A DNA stretch of 64,000 nt from contig DAIDGW010000108.1 of assembly GCA_027452245.1 (NCBI GenBank), positions 1-64,000 of the forward strand. Reading direction: 5' to 3'. Below, piece after piece: positions 34,579 to 42,075 of this stretch. The DNA comes from Acidobacteriaceae bacterium (lineage in GTDB: Bacteria > Acidobacteriota > Terriglobia > Terriglobales > Acidobacteriaceae). The position numbers were made by a program, and so were the translations under genes. Position 1 is the stretch's first letter, and each line of letters opens with the position of its first letter. The notes under the pieces were generated by a model, which was not told where the DNA came from, did not search any database, and saw only the letters and a program-made list of their open reading frames with translations.

Positions 34579-36141
34579 TTATGGCAATGCGGACGCGAGC
34601 GCTTCGTCCGCACGAAACCACTCCCAGCGCGCCCGCCCCAGCCGCTTCGCACGGTAGAGCGCCAGGTCGGCCGCATTGTACAGCTCGTGCCAGCTTCGCC
34701 CGTCTTCGGGGAACACCGCCACGCCCACGCTCGGCGTGCTGCAGATTTCTTTACCGTCGAAGAAAATGCAGTCGCTCATTCCATCCACAATGCGACCGCA
34801 GATGGCGTCAATGTCTCCTTCCTCCGTCCCCGAAAGGATCACGGCAAATTCGTCCCCGCCCAGGCGGGCGACGAAGTCGTATTGCCGAACCGCTACTGAA
34901 AGCCGCCGGGCCGCTTCCACCAGCAAAGCGTCTCCCGCATCGTGGCCGAGCGTATCGTTGATCTCCTTAAAGCGATCCAAATCGATCAGCAGGAAGGCGA
35001 ACTGCTTCTGGCTGCGTTCGGCCACCGACCGGTAACTGGCAAATCTGTCCTCCAGGTAACGGCGATTCGGCAATCCTGTGAGCACATCGTGGAACGCCGC
35101 CTTTTCCAGTTGCTGTTGGCTCTTGCGCAATTCCGCCGTACGCTGTTCCACCCGCGATTCCAATTCCTGATTCAGTTCCCGCAAGGCGTGCTCGGCGGTT
35201 CGTTGCTCTTCCGCCGCCGCTCCCAGCAACAGCAGCGCCGCTCCGCATCCAATGGTCATTTCTGAAAAAATCAGCAGCGTTCCCCGTTGCAAAAGGCCCA
35301 CATACGGACCGTATCCTGCAACCGTTCTTTCGACCACGATGGCGATGTCGGCGAGAAATAATGGATATGCAATCTGAATTGAGAATCGCTGCGCCGCCCA
35401 CAACAGCGGAAGCAAAATCAGCACCGACGCTCCCACCGTGGCCGCAATGTTCCCCTGGTGACGCGTCAATAGATAGCCGACTGACAGCAGCGACAACACT
35501 ACTGTGATCGCCAATTCGCCTAGATGTTTTCGTGTGCTGGAAAGGTCAGGCGGATCGTACCAAAGGAAATAAACGAGCGGCACAAGCAGGATCGCCGCCG
35601 CCGTGTCAGAAATAATCCAGTCAAACCATTGCGCCCGCCACAGAACGAATGGAAGCCCCAAACTGAACGACGAAAATGAGCCTCCGATCATCGCTGAGAT
35701 CAATCCACTGGTTGCGCACGCGACGACGAACTGGAAAATACTCTTCACTCGCCGAAACGGGCTCCTCCGGCCAACCCGTAACCTCAGTAGATAAACCGCT
35801 ATGATCGGAGCAAGCGTGTTCCCCAGCGCAATGCCACTTCCCGCAAGCACTGTGCCTTTGAAGTTCAACGTTTCCGCCACCAGCGCTCCTGCGAAGATTC
35901 CGGGGGCCGCCCCCACCCCCAGCATGAATACCGCCGACATCGAGACTCCCGCGGGAAACCACAATGGCGCGGGCCACATCTGATGACGGAAGAAATACGA
36001 CCGCATCAGAACGTCCACTCCCCAATAGACTCCGCCCAGAACCAGGCTTTTTGCCGTGAAACAGGCCAACCGCAAAATCCAGGTCTTTTTGTCCCAGCAG
36101 CTTCGGATGGCAGTCGCTCGGAATTTGGCTCTGATTTTCAC
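34579..36141 (-). CDS. MASE1-domain diguanylate cyclase (GGDEF)
   Basis: A 520-residue membrane-bound enzyme predicted to make cyclic di-GMP. The N-terminal part has about eight hydrophobic segments with the MASE1 pattern (GVDVLMRSYFFRHQMWPAPLWFP). A short coiled stretch (LRELNQELESRVEQRTAELRKSQ) then leads to the GGDEF domain. The active site reads RLGGDEFAVIL, the RFKEINDTLGHDAGD segment is intact, and an RxxD inhibitory I-site (RQYD) sits five residues before GGDEF, so product feedback is likely. No EAL domain is present, and the environmental signal sensed by MASE1 is unknown. Confidence 0.93.
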   Translation of the reverse strand: MKIRAKFRATAIRSCWDKKTWILRLACFTAKSLVLGGVYWGVDVLMRSYFFRHQMWPAPLWFPAGVSMSAVFMLGVGAAPGIFAGALVAETLNFKGTVLAGSGIALGNTLAPIIAVYLLRLRVGRRSPFRRVKSIFQFVVACATSGLISAMIGGSFSSFSLGLPFVLWRAQWFDWIISDTAAAILLVPLVYFLWYDPPDLSSTRKHLGELAITVVLSLLSVGYLLTRHQGNIAATVGASVLILLPLLWAAQRFSIQIAYPLFLADIAIVVERTVAGYGPYVGLLQRGTLLIFSEMTIGCGAALLLLGAAAEEQRTAEHALRELNQELESRVEQRTAELRKSQQQLEKAAFHDVLTGLPNRRYLEDRFASYRSVAERSQKQFAFLLIDLDRFKEINDTLGHDAGDALLVEAARRLSVAVRQYDFVARLGGDEFAVILSGTEEGDIDAICGRIVDGMSDCIFFDGKEICSTPSVGVAVFPEDGRSWHELYNAADLALYRAKRLGRARWEWFRADEALASALP

Positions 36142-36332
36142 GCTCTGAACCGAAGACTATCTATGCAAGGCAATCGCCATTTAGAGCTTTTGAATAGAGG
36201 CACTTAGCAGAACCTGTTACGTGTCCCTCGTACGCATCTTGGACGAAATTCCCGAAAGCGCACACGCACAGCACACTGCTTGGATATCGGCGGTCTGGAC
36301 GAAGTACTTCAGGAGGGTGCGGAATACTGCAA

Positions 36333-36366
36333 CTCTGCCGGGCCATGCAGGACTGCCCCGGCAGAG
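36333..36366 (-). terminator. Hairpin downstream of the small coiled-coil gene
   Basis: A perfect 10-bp stem (CTCTGCCGGG with CCCGGCAGAG) with a 14-nt loop lies between the coiled-coil gene stop and the diguanylate cyclase start. The minus-side sequence after it (TTGCAGTATTCC) has only scattered T, so termination strength is uncertain. Confidence 0.5.
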
Positions 36367-36390
36367 CTTAAGCTTCTAAATACCAATGAC

Positions 36391-36654
36391 TTACGGCCAG
36401 CGCTTGGCTGTGTCTTCCCATCCTGCAGCCCGCACCGGCTGCGGCGCGGGGGTCACCGGAGGAGCGGAGGGAATCCGTACCGCGGTTGGCTGTGAACCTC
36501 CGACGACCGGCGCCAAGGCTGGCTTGCCTGCGTCAGAATTCCCTTCTTTCTCTTCGGAAAGCAACGGGGCAACGAGCCGGAGCGCTTCTACTTCCTTCTC
36601 CAGCCGGGTGAGTTCCATCTCTTTCTGCCGCAGAACCTCGTAGACATTTTTCAT
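36391..36654 (-). CDS. Small coiled-coil protein, hypothetical
   Basis: An 87-residue soluble protein. The first half is one amphipathic, Glu/Leu-rich helix (VLRQKEMELTRLEKEVEALR), likely a coiled coil. The second half is Pro/Ala-rich and disordered (PVTPAPQPVRAAG). The ATG at 36654 is preferred over a TTG at 36687, because the promoter just upstream would start transcription at about 36690. Small proteins of this shape are common near regulators in Acidobacteria, but no function is known. It has its own promoter and hairpin, so it is probably monocistronic. Confidence 0.7.
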   Translation of the reverse strand: MKNVYEVLRQKEMELTRLEKEVEALRLVAPLLSEEKEGNSDAGKPALAPVVGGSQPTAVRIPSAPPVTPAPQPVRAAGWEDTAKRWP

Positions 36655-36696
36655 AAAAGTGGGCACCTGGGAATATGCGTCGACCAAACTAAACGC

Positions 36697-36724
36697 ACTT
36701 TATCAGAGTTGTCTTTATTGTCAA
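36697..36724 (-). promoter_or_regulatory. Sigma-70-like promoter of the coiled-coil gene
   Basis: On the minus strand, a perfect -35 TTGACA (36724-36719) is followed after 16 nt by TAAAGT (36702-36697) as -10. The predicted start at about 36690 gives a 36-nt leader before the ATG at 36654. It is the best-looking sigma-70 promoter in the window. Confidence 0.75.
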
Positions 36725-36853
36725 GAATTGCGCGGACAGGATGCTGGCTCAGTTTAGCCTGCCTGAGCGCGGATTCTGTGGGGACAGCGGCCCTGCCTGT
36801 CGGTCGCCAGGATTTGTCGTGCCGCAAGGCCGCTCGGAGTCTCTTGGCCGCAT

Positions 36854-38140
36854 TTACCGGCTCAGAATCAACGCCGCCATCATCACTGCGACCAGGGCAA
36901 TCACAATCAGGATGTACTTGTGTGTAGAAATCCAGGACTCGGATTCCGTTCCCGCCCGTAGAAGGGCGAACTCTGGGGCAGACTCGGGATTGGAAGATGC
37001 CGTAATTGAAGAACTTGCAGGCGCTGGAGGTCCAACATCGCTTTGCTGCACGTCTACTTTGACGCCAGCCTGCTTGGTCTCGGCAATCCCCGCCTTCTCA
37101 GCGCTCTCGCTTCTCGGAGGATTCAATTGGTTTGAACTGGCGGGGGGAACCGGTGCAACTGGCGGCGCGCTTCTTGCCTTCGGGCGAAGCTGCCCTTTCC
37201 AGCTCTTCTCTTCGCACTCCACGCACAGCGTTCGACCGTGCGAGACAGGAAATCCGCAGGCCTGGCACTGATGGAGGTCGCGCAGTGCCGCGGGAACTTG
37301 CGATCGATCCTCCGGGAGCGCCGGTTCGGCATGCATCGCCGCAGTCCACAACAGCTTGCTCGCTTGCCGTGATTTCGTTCCGGCTGCACCACGTGTCGGC
37401 TCCGAGTCAGGTTCCGCCGCCTTCGCGGGACCAGCAATTTTCGCGTCCACTTGCGCCCGCGTCTCGGCCGGAGGCGCTGACTTGCTCGATTCCACCACCA
37501 TGGATTGATGGTCCGCCGATTCCAGTTCTGCAGTCAGATCATCCTCAGTGGCCCCCCGCGAATCCACAGTGACTGCTCGCGTGGACTGCTCCAGTTTAAC
37601 CGCCGTTTCCACCATCTGCCCCAGCCGCTGCAGGCTGGCCAGGTCGCGTTCGCCGAATGCGTTCTTCGCGCCCGAAAACAGTTCGAAAATACCCACAACC
37701 TGTTCGTCGCTGACGATCGGCATCACGGCAATGGACGCAATCCCCAACTGCCGGCACGCCGCAGAATTCACCCGCGGATCCGATTGCGTATCGTCGCAAC
37801 GCAAAGGCATGCGGGTGCGCACACATTCGCCCGACAATCCCATCTCAGTGGAAAATAGGGTACCTTGCTCCGGAACTTTCTCTCCCGCCGTGGCACAACA
37901 TCTCAGATGACTGTGATCACCTTGCCGCAGCGCGATCGCCGCCCCCGCGGCGTCGCTGATGAATCGCGCACGTTCCGCCAGAAGCTGCAGAGTCGCCTCC
38001 AGGTCGCGCCGCGCCATCTCCGCAATCAGACCCCTCCTGCCGGGGGAATACGATCGTTCCGGAATGCGCGCCTGTGCCGCGGCCGCCGCAACTCCGGCCG
38101 GCGCACTGGGATTTGTGGTTCGGTTTACCTCATTTTGCAT
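36854..38140 (-). CDS. GAF-domain protein with zinc ribbon and C-terminal membrane anchor
   Basis: A 428-residue protein with three parts. A GAF sensor domain lies at about residues 45-190 (GAAIALRQGDHSHLRCCATAGE and MPIVSDEQVVGIFELFSG). A long disordered Ala/Pro/Glu-rich linker then contains a CxxC-x10-CxxC zinc ribbon (CQACGFPVSHGRTLCVECEEK). A single C-terminal transmembrane helix (YILIVIALVAVMMAALIL) would anchor it by its tail. The domain set resembles a membrane-attached redox or ligand sensor, but no output domain is seen. The N-terminal start ATG at 38140 is not strongly marked by a Shine-Dalgarno. Confidence 0.8.
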   Translation of the reverse strand: MQNEVNRTTNPSAPAGVAAAAAQARIPERSYSPGRRGLIAEMARRDLEATLQLLAERARFISDAAGAAIALRQGDHSHLRCCATAGEKVPEQGTLFSTEMGLSGECVRTRMPLRCDDTQSDPRVNSAACRQLGIASIAVMPIVSDEQVVGIFELFSGAKNAFGERDLASLQRLGQMVETAVKLEQSTRAVTVDSRGATEDDLTAELESADHQSMVVESSKSAPPAETRAQVDAKIAGPAKAAEPDSEPTRGAAGTKSRQASKLLWTAAMHAEPALPEDRSQVPAALRDLHQCQACGFPVSHGRTLCVECEEKSWKGQLRPKARSAPPVAPVPPASSNQLNPPRSESAEKAGIAETKQAGVKVDVQQSDVGPPAPASSSITASSNPESAPEFALLRAGTESESWISTHKYILIVIALVAVMMAALILSR

Positions 38141-38292
38141 GACAGTCGGCCCGCGAATCGCAAGGTGTTGAATTTCAAGAGCGTACGTCGAGTCTCGCTC
38201 CGCATAGGAGGGGTGTCAAGCACAGGAAGTAACCTTTGGTACCGATCAAATCCGGATGCGATTCAAGCTCGGAGTACTGTTGCGATCGCGAG

Positions 38293-38772
38293 CTAGCTCC
38301 GCCGTTTGCGGACGGCGTCATTGGCCAGCCGGTTGGCCGCCGCATTGTCCTCCCGTGGGACGTGGGAGATCGAGAAAACGAGACTCCGCGCCAACTTCCG
38401 GCAGGTCCAATACAAAGAGTAGAGTCGAGGGCTGCGGCAGATGTATTCGCCGGTCATCTGCCTGACCACGACCTGCGAATCCGAATAGACGTGAAGTTTG
38501 CGGGCTTTCAGGGCAACGGCATACTGCAGGGCTTCCATCAGGGCAGCGTACTCCGCCACATTGTTATCTTGATGGCCGATCCACTTGGCGATGCGGATCT
38601 CGTCATCGCCCCCCCCATTAATGATCACTCCAATGCCGGACGGCCCGGGATTGCCCAGGGAACCACCGTCTACGTAGGCTACGAGGTCCGACATCGATCC
38701 GCGAATGCTCTCCTGAAGATGCGCTGAAGCTTCGTCTGCGTCAAGACGATTATTTGGTTCGCTTTCAGCCAT
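38293..38772 (-). CDS. RNase HI-like protein
   Basis: A 159-residue ribonuclease H-fold protein. The four acidic residues of the active site are in VAYVDGGSLGNPG (Asp), NNVAEYAALMEAL (Glu), HVYSDSQVV (Asp) and PREDNAAANRLAN (Asp). This is the compact form without the basic handle of E. coli RNase HI, similar to the RnhA-like proteins of Gram-positives and archaea. The frame is open upstream to 38976, but the ATG at 38772 is the best start because the remainder is not domain-like. The divergent, structured RNA region lies upstream. Confidence 0.88.
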   Translation of the reverse strand: MAESEPNNRLDADEASAHLQESIRGSMSDLVAYVDGGSLGNPGPSGIGVIINGGGDDEIRIAKWIGHQDNNVAEYAALMEALQYAVALKARKLHVYSDSQVVVRQMTGEYICRSPRLYSLYWTCRKLARSLVFSISHVPREDNAAANRLANDAVRKRRS

Positions 38773-38951
38773 TTTCGGGCATGCCCTGACGTTGTGCAAT
38801 TTTCTGTGCAAAATGCGGGCTCTTCTTCTTCTCTCATTAGTAAGCAATTCAGCAACAATGGGTTGCAACCTGCGATATGCACAGCTTGCAGCTAACCCAT
38901 TGCACCAAAAGTTTGCGTTGACTTTTATTGCTGCGGTGTTAAGGTAGCTTG

Positions 38952-39208
38952 CGTCGACGGTTGAAAGGGTTGGCACAAATAAAATTTGCCAGTCCGAAGT
39001 AGACTGAGTGATAGGTCTGGCGGGGCAACTCGCTGGATAGCCGGACCCGAAAAAACCGACAGACTCTGCGAGGAGCTGTTGGGGTTCGGAACTGCGAAAG
39101 CAGTGATCACATCAAGGGGCTGTGACGGTACATGCCTCCACGCTGTTAGCTCCCTCGCAGGAGCGAGCGGCTAGAGCATAACCAATGTCACGGCCCTTTC
39201 TATTTTTT
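38952..39208 (+). ncRNA. Candidate structured small RNA or leader RNA, unclassified
   Basis: A dense set of hairpins with its own promoter and terminator. TTGACT (38918-38923), 16 nt and TAAGGT (38940-38945) precede it. Stems seen: GGTCTGGC/GCCGGACC (39014-39047); CCGACAG/CTGTTGG with an inner CTC/GAG (39056-39082); ACTGC/GCAGT with a GAAA tetraloop (39091-39104); and a 10-bp GGGCTGTGAC/GTCACGGCCC (39117-39196) enclosing GGT/ACC, ATGC/GCAT, TAGC/GCTA and CTCGC/GCGAG. The last is followed by a T-rich run (TTTCTATTTTTT). No known family was recognised by eye. It could be a small RNA or a riboswitch-like leader of the carboxylase gene. Confidence 0.6.
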
Positions 39209-39287
39209 GGACGTAAACCTTTCCCGGCGACGCTCTTCTTTCCCCGATTCGCTTGCGCGCTGATACCCGCATTGTCTGCGTCCCGCA

Positions 39288-39293
39288 TATAAT
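39288..39293 (+). promoter_or_regulatory. -10 element of the acyl-CoA carboxylase gene
   Basis: A perfect TATAAT lies 9 nt before the ATG at 39303. No Shine-Dalgarno or clear -35 is visible, so the transcript is likely leaderless and independent of the structured RNA upstream. Confidence 0.6.
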
Positions 39294-39302
39294 TCCTGCA
39301 AC

Positions 39303-40856
39303 ATGAAGCTCGAACAAAAAGTCGCCGAACTCAAGCGGCGCGATCAACTTGCCCAGGAAGGCGGAGGCGCCCAGCGCCGCGAACGCCAGCACAAAGAAGG
39401 AAAGATGTCGGCCCGCGAACGCATCGAGTTCCTGCTCGATGAAGGCACCTTCGAAGAGACCGACAAGCTCGTCACCCACCGCTGCAACGATTTCGGCATG
39501 GCCGAGCAGAAATACTACGGCGACGGATTCGTCACCGGCTATGGCCGCATCGAAGGGCGGCTCGTCTATGTCTTCGCGCAGGATTTCACCGTCTTTGGCG
39601 GATCGCTCTCGGAAGCCAATGCCGGCAAGATCGTGAAGATCATGGACCTGGCGGCGAAAATGGGCGCGCCCGTGATCGGACTGAATGACTCCGGAGGGGC
39701 GCGCATTCAGGAAGGCGTGATGTCGCTCGCCGGTTATGCCGACATCTTCCTGCGCAACACGATCTACAGCGGCGTCGTTCCGCAAATCTCGGCCGTCATG
39801 GGCCCTTGCGCGGGGGGCGCCGTGTACTCGCCCGCAATTACCGATTTCGTCCTGATGGTCGACAAGACCTCCTACATGTTCATCACCGGCCCCGATGTGA
39901 TCAAGACGGTCACACACGAGGAAGTCACGAAAGACCAGCTCGGCGGCGCCATGACGCACAACGAAACCTCGGGCGTCGCACACTTCCTGGCGCACGACGA
40001 TGCCGAATGCCTGTCGATGGTGCGCGAGCTGCTCAGCTTCGTTCCGTCGAACAATCTCGAAGATCCTCCGCGCAAGGCCTGCACCGATCCCGTCGATCGC
40101 GCCGACGCCGCACTCGACACGATCATCCCCGAACAATCGAATCAACCCTATGACATCAAAGACGTAATCCAGCGGGTGGTCGACGACGGCTACTTCTTCG
40201 AGGTGCAGGAGCACTATGCCAAGAATATCGTTGTCGGATTTGCCCGGCTCGACGGACGTTCCGTCGGCATCGTGGCGAACCAGCCCGCCATTCTCGCCGG
40301 AACGCTTGATATCAATGCGTCGATCAAGGGCGCGCGTTTCGTCCGCTTCTGCGACTGCTTCAACATCCCGCTGGTGACGTTTGAAGATGTTCCCGGCTTC
40401 CTTCCCGGCACCGCGCAGGAATACGGCGGCATCATCAAGCACGGCGCGAAGCTGCTGTTCGCCTTCGCTGAGGCCACCGTACCAAAGGTTACGGTGATCA
40501 CCCGCAAAGCCTATGGCGGAGCATATTGCGTGATGGCTTCAAAGCACATCCGTACCGATGCGAACTATGCCTGGCCGGGGGCTGAAATCGCCGTCATGGG
40601 ACCGGAAGGTGCGGTCGACATCGTATACAAGCGCGAACTCGATGCGGCGGCGGGAGACCGGGCCGACGTCCGGCAGAAGAAGATCGAAGAATTCCGCGAC
40701 CGCTTCGCCAATCCCTATGTCGTGGCCGAGCGCGGATTCGTCGACGCCGTGATCCAGCCTCGAGAGACGCGCAAGAAGTTGATCCAGGCGCTCGCGATGC
40801 TCGAAACCAAGCGCGACAAGAATCCTCCCAAGAAGCACGGGAACATCCCACTGTAG
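39303..40856 (+). CDS. Acyl-CoA carboxylase beta (carboxyltransferase) subunit
   Basis: A 517-residue carboxyltransferase of the propionyl-CoA carboxylase beta/methylmalonyl-CoA decarboxylase alpha family, which moves a carboxyl group between biotin and an acyl-CoA. The N-terminal crotonase-like half contains [14 protein letters not shown] and [13 protein letters not shown] (acyl-CoA oxyanion site). The C-terminal half has [19 protein letters not shown] and [10 protein letters not shown] (biotin oxyanion site). The length fits PccB. The acyl-CoA substrate (propionyl or other) and the direction (carboxylase or decarboxylase) cannot be set from sequence. No biotin-carboxylase subunit is in the window. 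Confidence 0.93.
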
Positions 40857-41229
40857 CGAATCGCAACACTGGAATTGCGATATGGGGCCCTACGGAACCT
40901 CAAAGCTGTCTCATAATGAGATGTACATACATAACTGTTATGTCGTGGATGTATGCAATTGACGCTAGGGCGGTTTCCTGCCCCGTAGAGCGATTTTGGG
41001 CCCGTGGATGACCTCCGGGAGGGTGAAGTCGGAGATCGCCGCTCAGGGGCCAGTGGAAGCTCCGCAATGGGCATTTTAGGAGAGGTTGCGAGCGCTGCCC
41101 CTTACCCGTGGCCAATGTAACATACCTTTGATAACGTCTCGGGCTGGGAAGACTCAAAGTACCCGTTTGAGCTTGATACTTCGCTACTTTCGAACCTGCG
41201 AAACCAGTAGAAGTAGCTTTCAAAGACGC
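40857..41229. other. Intergenic region between convergent genes, no gene seen
   Basis: A 373-bp gap. A hairpin ATCGCAA/TTGCGAT (40860-40881) follows the carboxylase stop and may end its transcript. A second AT-rich inverted repeat lies near 40921-40967 (CATACAT and ATGTATG). No ORF with domain-like content and no recognised RNA were found. Confidence 0.5.
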
Positions 41230-42075
41230 TTAGTCCGCCATAATGGCGATTTCGTGGGTGTTGGCGGCATCGATCACTTTCTGGCCATCCAATAAAAGGC
41301 AGCGGCGCGCATCGAGCGCCAGGCAGGATGCCCCGGCTGCCTGCATCACCTCGATGGTCTTCACGCCGACAACGGGCACATCGAAGCGCATGTCCTGATT
41401 GGGCTTGGCGATCTTCACGACAGTTAATGCGCGGCCGAGAGTAGAGGCGTCTCCATGCAGGGAGCGCATGATTCCGCCGGCGCGCTCGATGGTGGCGTCG
41501 GTACCTTCCATGGCCTCAAGCGCGACGCAGGCCGATTCGGCGATGACGACGGTTTGCCCGATGTCGTATTGCGCGAGTTGGCGGGCGACCGCGCGTCCGT
41601 AGTGAATGTTGTTGCGTTCCTGCTCACTGGGAGCGCGTTGGGTTAGAGCTCCGGATTTGACCAGGAGCGGTTCGAGGAGCGCAGTGGAATTTTCCAGAGT
41701 GATGCCTTCGTCGTCCAGGACCCTGGCAACGGCTCCAAGCAGGGAATCAGTGTTGCGGGTGGTGAGCGACAGCAGAAGTTTGGCGAGGCGCCAATCGGGA
41801 CGGATGCTGGAGAAAATCTGCTTATGCTTGACTTGTCCGGCCATGACGGCGCGCTGCACGCCTTCGCGCTTAAAGGTCTCGATCAGCTTTGATAGTTCGC
41901 CGAGCGAGAGCCAGTGTACGGAGGCTGCGCCGTGCGATTCAATTTCGGGGGAAGCTTCTTCTTTGATGGCGGCGAGGACGACGTCGTATCCCTGGGCGCG
42001 GGCGGCATCGAGCACGAGAAACGGGAACTTGCCGTTCCCTGCGATGAGGCCAAGTTTTTCTTTCGTGGAGGGCAT
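41230..42075 (-). CDS. lpxI: UDP-2,3-diacylglucosamine pyrophosphatase LpxI (DUF1009)
   Basis: A 281-residue enzyme of lipid A synthesis that turns UDP-2,3-diacylglucosamine into lipid X and UMP; it replaces LpxH in many alpha-proteobacteria and Acidobacteria. The N-terminal GLIAGNGKFPFLVL and VQRAVMAGQVKH segments and the C-terminal GVKTIEVMQAAGASCLALDA are typical of the LpxI fold. It is the last gene of the minus-strand fabZ-lpxA-x-lpxI run. The ATG at 42075 is the only sensible start. Gene order fits co-expression with lpxA and fabZ. Confidence 0.92.
   Translation of the reverse strand: MPSTKEKLGLIAGNGKFPFLVLDAARAQGYDVVLAAIKEEASPEIESHGAASVHWLSLGELSKLIETFKREGVQRAVMAGQVKHKQIFSSIRPDWRLAKLLLSLTTRNTDSLLGAVARVLDDEGITLENSTALLEPLLVKSGALTQRAPSEQERNNIHYGRAVARQLAQYDIGQTVVIAESACVALEAMEGTDATIERAGGIMRSLHGDASTLGRALTVVKIAKPNQDMRFDVPVVGVKTIEVMQAAGASCLALDARRCLLLDGQKVIDAANTHEIAIMAD

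Follow-up and report, generated by a model that had tools for sequence, protein, structure and literature searches.

The locus raises two questions: whether the structured RNA encoded between an RNase HI gene and an acyl-CoA carboxylase gene in the window (the whole 64,000-nucleotide stretch of Acidobacteriaceae DNA analysed here) is a gene in its own right, and with what such an RNA might act. A preliminary description had placed an unclassified, strongly folding RNA at 38952-39208 and had read it as either a small RNA or a leader of the carboxylase gene. We built a covariance model (CM), R1, of 253 positions and 80 pairs, which matched the forward strand at 38952-39205 with 268.7 bits; the limits first proposed were thus almost exact. 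The RNA is 254 nt long and contains 12 covariation-supported helices. Folded as a single strand, it reached -110.1 kcal/mol compared to -81.8 kcal/mol for shuffled sequences (MFE z = -5.8), and none of 200 shuffles folded as well, in agreement with the strong folding noted at the outset.

The consensus structure was derived with RNAalifold from a MAFFT alignment of 90 copies, made without any fitting to structure. The 5' domain (38958-39006) consists of helix 1 (38958-38962/39002-39006), which encloses helix 2 (38967-38975/38987-38995); 98.6% and 90.9% of the respective alignment cells were paired, and both-sided changes occurred in 10 of the 14 pairs of this domain. It is followed by a central multibranch domain (39008-39110), in which helix 3 (39008-39013/39105-39110) encloses helices 4-8 and 10. 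Among these is the GAAA-tetraloop hairpin that had been recognised by eye, located at 39092-39103 and paired in 99.4% of cells. The long 3' hairpin (39115-39198), formed by helices 11-13, has a 12-bp base with 99.5% of cells paired and a U-rich tail, and doubles as an intrinsic terminator, as the early reading of a hairpin followed by a T-rich run had implied. Only the 8-bp GGTCTGGC/GCCGGACC stem of that reading lacked conservation. Four of the eight pairs are each present in just 18-31 of 89 relatives, and the bases of the stem sit in other consensus helices of the central domain (39015-39024/39029-39038 and 39041-39047/39083-39089). GCGA at 39068-39071 might in addition form a kissing (loop-loop) contact with UCGC at 39155-39158. 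This contact was 99.2% paired and nearly invariant, showed a single compensatory change (L091) and was absent from diverged copies, and we keep it as a weak possibility.

The preliminary description had suggested a test for covariation among relatives, and the outcome was clear. The RNAalifold consensus comprised 80 pairs, of which 49 showed both-sided changes; inclusion of the four kissing-loop pairs brought the total to 84, with 96.5% of cells paired, a percentage that is partly circular because the structure came from the same alignment. Both-sided change was found in 50 of the 84 pairs, compared to 28.3 (sd 2.6) in shuffled alignments and at most 25 in slid controls, and 0 of 500 shuffles scored as high. 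The number of cells with both-sided change was 482, compared to 142 in shuffles and at most 111 in slid controls; such cell counts are inflated by kinship among the sequences, and more weight belongs to the distribution of both-sided changes across twelve helices. In an alignment of 105 copies fitted to the model, diverged copies included, both-sided change reached 63 of 80 pairs. Repeated compensatory changes were seen in all helices; the optional kissing contact was the one exception. Strict conservation (at least 95%) was as frequent in unpaired columns (46%) as in paired ones (44%), a pattern that favours tertiary contacts or protein binding.

No catalogued family accounted for this fold, as had been surmised by eye. 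A cmscan of the window at the Rfam 15 gathering thresholds returned no family at the RNA, a scan of 38800-39320 gave 0 matches at E ≤ 10, and scans of 12 further loci at E ≤ 1 gave none at the position of the RNA. Acido-1 and Acido-Lenti-1 (RF01686, RF01687) are candidate noncoding RNAs of Acidobacteria (PMC2864571). Neither matched the RNA at E ≤ 10; the Acido-1 model differs in having only 64 positions, and it found nothing in 11 genomes, in a search run without a positive control. Within the literature covered, which included few subscription papers and no preprints, we found no report of a similar acidobacterial RNA or of a link to RNase HI.

The distribution of the RNA was nearly confined to one family. 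A DNA search detected it in 61 of 150 same-family genomes, mostly at 75-86% identity over about 255 nt, and the R1 search of the family raised this to 78 of 200 genomes and 36 of 79 genera, with one to five copies each. The order-level search gave 63 of 249 genomes, all within the one family. At class level 17 of 299 genomes carried the RNA, and the only matches outside the family were on two small contigs from MAGs assigned to a different family; the phylum sample (297 genomes) held in-family matches only, bar one at noise level. Presence outside the family was considered and rejected, since the contigs concerned, from gp2 AA93 (L104), Ca. Acidiferrum UBA7541 (L125) and Verrucomicrobia AV52 (L121), look misbinned. 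The two class-level contigs were read in this way because the flank of L125 is shared with the in-family locus L114 and L104 resembles L166. The copy on the probably misbinned L121 contig showed an apparent internal deletion (model positions 82-138) without assembly Ns, and three other apparent deletion variants (L148, L152 and L158) were discarded as assembly gaps (NN). Named records with the RNA belong to Candidatus Sulfotelmatobacter, Acidobacteriaceae, Terriglobia and subdivision 1 MAGs, many of them from soil or peat. A diverged copy was accompanied by a fluoride riboswitch (RF01734, 51 bits; L248, 2953-3014, reverse strand), and directly downstream of, or beside, a copy at another locus lay a sub-threshold Rfam match to Plastid-psbl-rps4 (61.9 of 68 bits, E 4.7e-11; L054, 2960-3015, reverse strand).

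The promoter proposed initially, TTGACT-16-TAAGGT, was confirmed on the forward strand and recurred across 181 copies. The -35 element TTGACT lies at 38918-38923 (TTGAC at -35/-34 in about 149 of 181 copies), and the -10 element TAAGGT, of the form TANNNT, lies 16 nt 3' of it at 38940-38945 (TANNNT at -12/-11 in 165 of 181). Further upstream, centred near -52, a TTGCACC box at 38900-38906 is a probable activator site (GCAC at -51/-50 in about 127 of 181). The box together with the -35, allowing up to two mismatches, gave a single match in the whole genome of the window, and a regulon of this box was therefore rejected. The unit of promoter, RNA and terminator is kept while its flanks diverge. 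The RNA thus appears to stand as its own gene, with transcription itself predicted from these elements. Taken together with the covarying fold, the sequence comparisons give good support to the existence of a previously uncatalogued, stand-alone structured RNA family of acidobacteria and to the independence of its gene.

The neighbour that recurs is an RNase HI paralog. In the window it lies head-to-head with the RNA on the reverse strand (38293-38772, with a possible alternative start at 38694) and matches Pfam RVT_3 (75.5 bits) and RNase_H (51.5 bits). A divergent RNase HI paralog was found upstream of the RNA in 88 of 130 full copies, with a median spacing of 256 nt from its start to the RNA, half of the values falling within 248-266 nt. 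In several genomes of one genus, a tandem pair of RNA copies a few hundred bases apart lies beside this gene (L036, L041 and L279). In most RNA-bearing genomes the linked gene is accompanied by an ordinary RNase HI gene, at 38-51% identity. The linked paralog was present in 48 of 50 genomes with a main-type RNA, in 0 of 4 with only CRP-type copies (described below) and in 0 of 37 without the RNA, counts that are not independent events because the genomes are related. The two main-type genomes that lack it (G074 and G126) are both fragmented; in three others (G003, G004 and G011) the linked gene has 50-52% identity to that of the window and was recognised by its position beside the RNA. Diverged RNA copies persist without the linked paralog in G128, G148, G137 and G562, so the RNA can be retained without it.

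The linked protein has kept most of the catalytic acids of its fold. The glutamate and the second aspartate are present in 92 of 92 proteins and the first aspartate in 90 of 92, the two remaining proteins having gaps there. The fourth catalytic position is asparagine in 89 of 92 linked proteins and aspartate in all 22 ordinary paralogs that were read. In the solved structures 3u3g and 3hst, the residue aligned with this asparagine is an aspartate. The corresponding fourth catalytic residue of E. coli RNase HI is Asp134, a member of the DEDD motif (PMC13310575). On these alignments, the linked RNase HI paralog has an altered fourth active-site residue.

A second class of promoters was found away from this gene. 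In 17 diverged copies (about 15 without loci fetched twice), the -35 element is missing throughout and GTGA-N6-TCAC is centred at -41.5; the background frequency of this motif, 0.045 per kb, predicts about 0.05 occurrences. We take -41.5, from what is known of E. coli, to be the class II position of CRP-type activators, and a CRP homologue may bind at this motif. None of the 17 CRP-type copies is adjacent to RNase HI, compared to 100 adjacent and 42 non-adjacent copies among those with a -35. The two promoter classes are mutually exclusive, and with one of them CRP-like at the class II position they offer handles on the timing of RNA production.

We consider it likely that the RNA is a trans-acting, fold-dependent, stand-alone noncoding RNA whose likeliest partner is the RNase HI paralog. 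RNA polymerase would start near 38952 from the sigma-70-type promoter with its upstream TTGCACC box and would stop at the 3' hairpin. Selection keeps a three-dimensional fold; the compensatory changes in the helices and the invariant joining segments suggest that the RNA most likely acts through protein binding, as an RNP or a decoy, and the roles of leader or short antisense RNA are less likely. Both this protein binding and the signal inputs are inferred. The main copy is genetically tied to the divergent RNase HI paralog, whose protein would be the likeliest partner, and extra copies elsewhere, some under the CRP-like site, might raise the dose or couple the RNA to other signals. The specific pairing of RNA and paralog as partners has, in our estimate, slightly less than an even chance. 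A fuller version is more tentative: a two-part RNP of the RNA and a dedicated, altered-site RNase HI, in which the RNase H fold would serve as an RNA- or RNA-DNA-hybrid-binding module and the extra RNA copies on other promoters would tune the system.

The best-surviving alternative, rather unlikely in our view, is a trans-acting base-pairing regulatory sRNA for which the RNase HI neighbourhood is an ancestral location without functional tie. Multiple copies per genome under differing promoters, including the CRP-like class II type, resemble sibling sRNAs; the 42 promoter-bearing copies and all CRP-type copies noted above lie away from RNase HI; and RNA and paralog may co-occur simply by descent of a single linked locus, linkage alone being enough to explain the pattern. 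However, the full 254 nt with all helices is conserved with compensatory changes, not a short seed, the adjacency to RNase HI outlasts the scrambling of other neighbours, and the paralog bears an active-site signature of its own. The invariant single-stranded segments may have a base-pairing role, a point against the preferred, protein-binding reading.

The dispersal of the copies could also point to a mobile repeat (MITE or REP-like) that folds by chance. The RNA is multi-copy, two copies lie beside transposase-like genes, and the sequence that paralogous copies of a genome have in common begins at about -60 to -170 and runs through the RNA to its 3' end, where the shared unit of several duplicated copies stops. 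However, genomes hold no more than five copies, the 5' border of the duplicated units varies and includes the promoter, no record with the RNA was found in the plasmid and viral collections searched, and the RNA is under strong structural selection. A mobile repeat is therefore very unlikely.

The intergenic region also suggested a role at the replication origin. Upstream of the RNase HI gene, on the reverse strand at 38793-38813, lie paired DnaA-box-like repeats, TTTTGCACA-N3-ATTGCACA (also given as TTTTNCACA-N3-nTTGCACA). CACA-N8-CACA occurred in 59 of 89 RNase HI-RNA intergenic regions against a background of 0.01 per kb, and TTWTNCACA on the RNase HI strand in 72 of 89, with 0.5 expected; such repeats are scarce in the surroundings (0-4 per 40 kb). 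Within 36000-42000 of the window, GC skew passes from about -0.1 to +0.1, changing sign near 38-41 kb. These two features raised the idea of an origin-associated RNA, similar to ColE1 RNAII, acting with RNase HI at the chromosomal origin, which was then rejected. A comparable flip at the locus was missing from most of the ten other genomes compared, two congeneric ones included; two had the opposite sign, and skew was noisy along long contigs. About 60% of the family yielded no such locus, which makes an origin role unlikely. In the genomes checked, dnaA lay on a different contig, apart from the single-contig genome, and its surroundings likewise lacked an origin signature. We hold this idea to be even less probable than a mobile repeat.

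The leader reading had come from position: the acyl-CoA carboxylase gene (39303-40856) follows the RNA on that strand, with its start codon about 98 nt away, an arrangement in which a cis-acting leader or riboswitch might be expected. However, the RNA has its own terminator, at which sequence likeness between unrelated loci ends; no downstream gene family is shared by more than about 10 of 138 copies, and the genes lie on either strand; and no recurring gene was found among the neighbours examined around dispersed copies. We excluded a leader because of the conserved promoter, the similarity ending at the terminator, the non-recurring downstream genes and the lack of coding potential, and it ranks below the origin idea in probability. 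The small-RNA half of the original alternative stood, given the promoter, terminator, covarying fold and copies in unrelated contexts. A messenger for a short protein is hardly conceivable: the window copy has a 62-codon ORF, but just 1-2 of 89 copies have any open frame on the RNA strand, the longest open run of 48-50 codons is near the 44 codons of shuffles, and copy lengths vary with no period of three.

If the preferred reading, a fold-dependent noncoding RNA with a likely protein partner, is true, the RNA class is new and common in abundant, mostly uncultured soil bacteria. The complexity of the fold suggests an RNP or other structural function, and the tie to the RNase HI paralog provides a concrete, testable partner. 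To our knowledge, no structured noncoding RNA has been described as genetically tied to an RNase HI paralog whose active site is altered.

Among known systems, 6S RNA (RF00013) is likewise stand-alone, structured and trans-acting, with its own promoter and terminator. However, its CM does not match here, it forms one rod with a central bubble whereas the present RNA is multibranched and multi-copy, and the canonical 6S of the same genome sits elsewhere (G000:C161:44297-44486). CyaR, Qrr and OmrA/B are CRP-activated or sibling sRNAs that share several copies, regulated promoters and an intrinsic terminator with this family, in which a subset has the CRP-like -41.5 site; they are short, variable and seed-bearing, in contrast to a 254-nt RNA with a conserved complex fold. 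OLE RNA is a large structured noncoding RNA with a dedicated protein, OapA, and resembles the present RNA in its long, highly conserved fold and its standing genetic link to one protein family. Classes of the OLE type differ in that none gave an Rfam match here and that the present candidate partner belongs to the RNase HI paralogs instead of being a membrane protein. Protein partners are already known for other stand-alone structured RNAs, while this RNA family and its proposed RNase HI partner are new.
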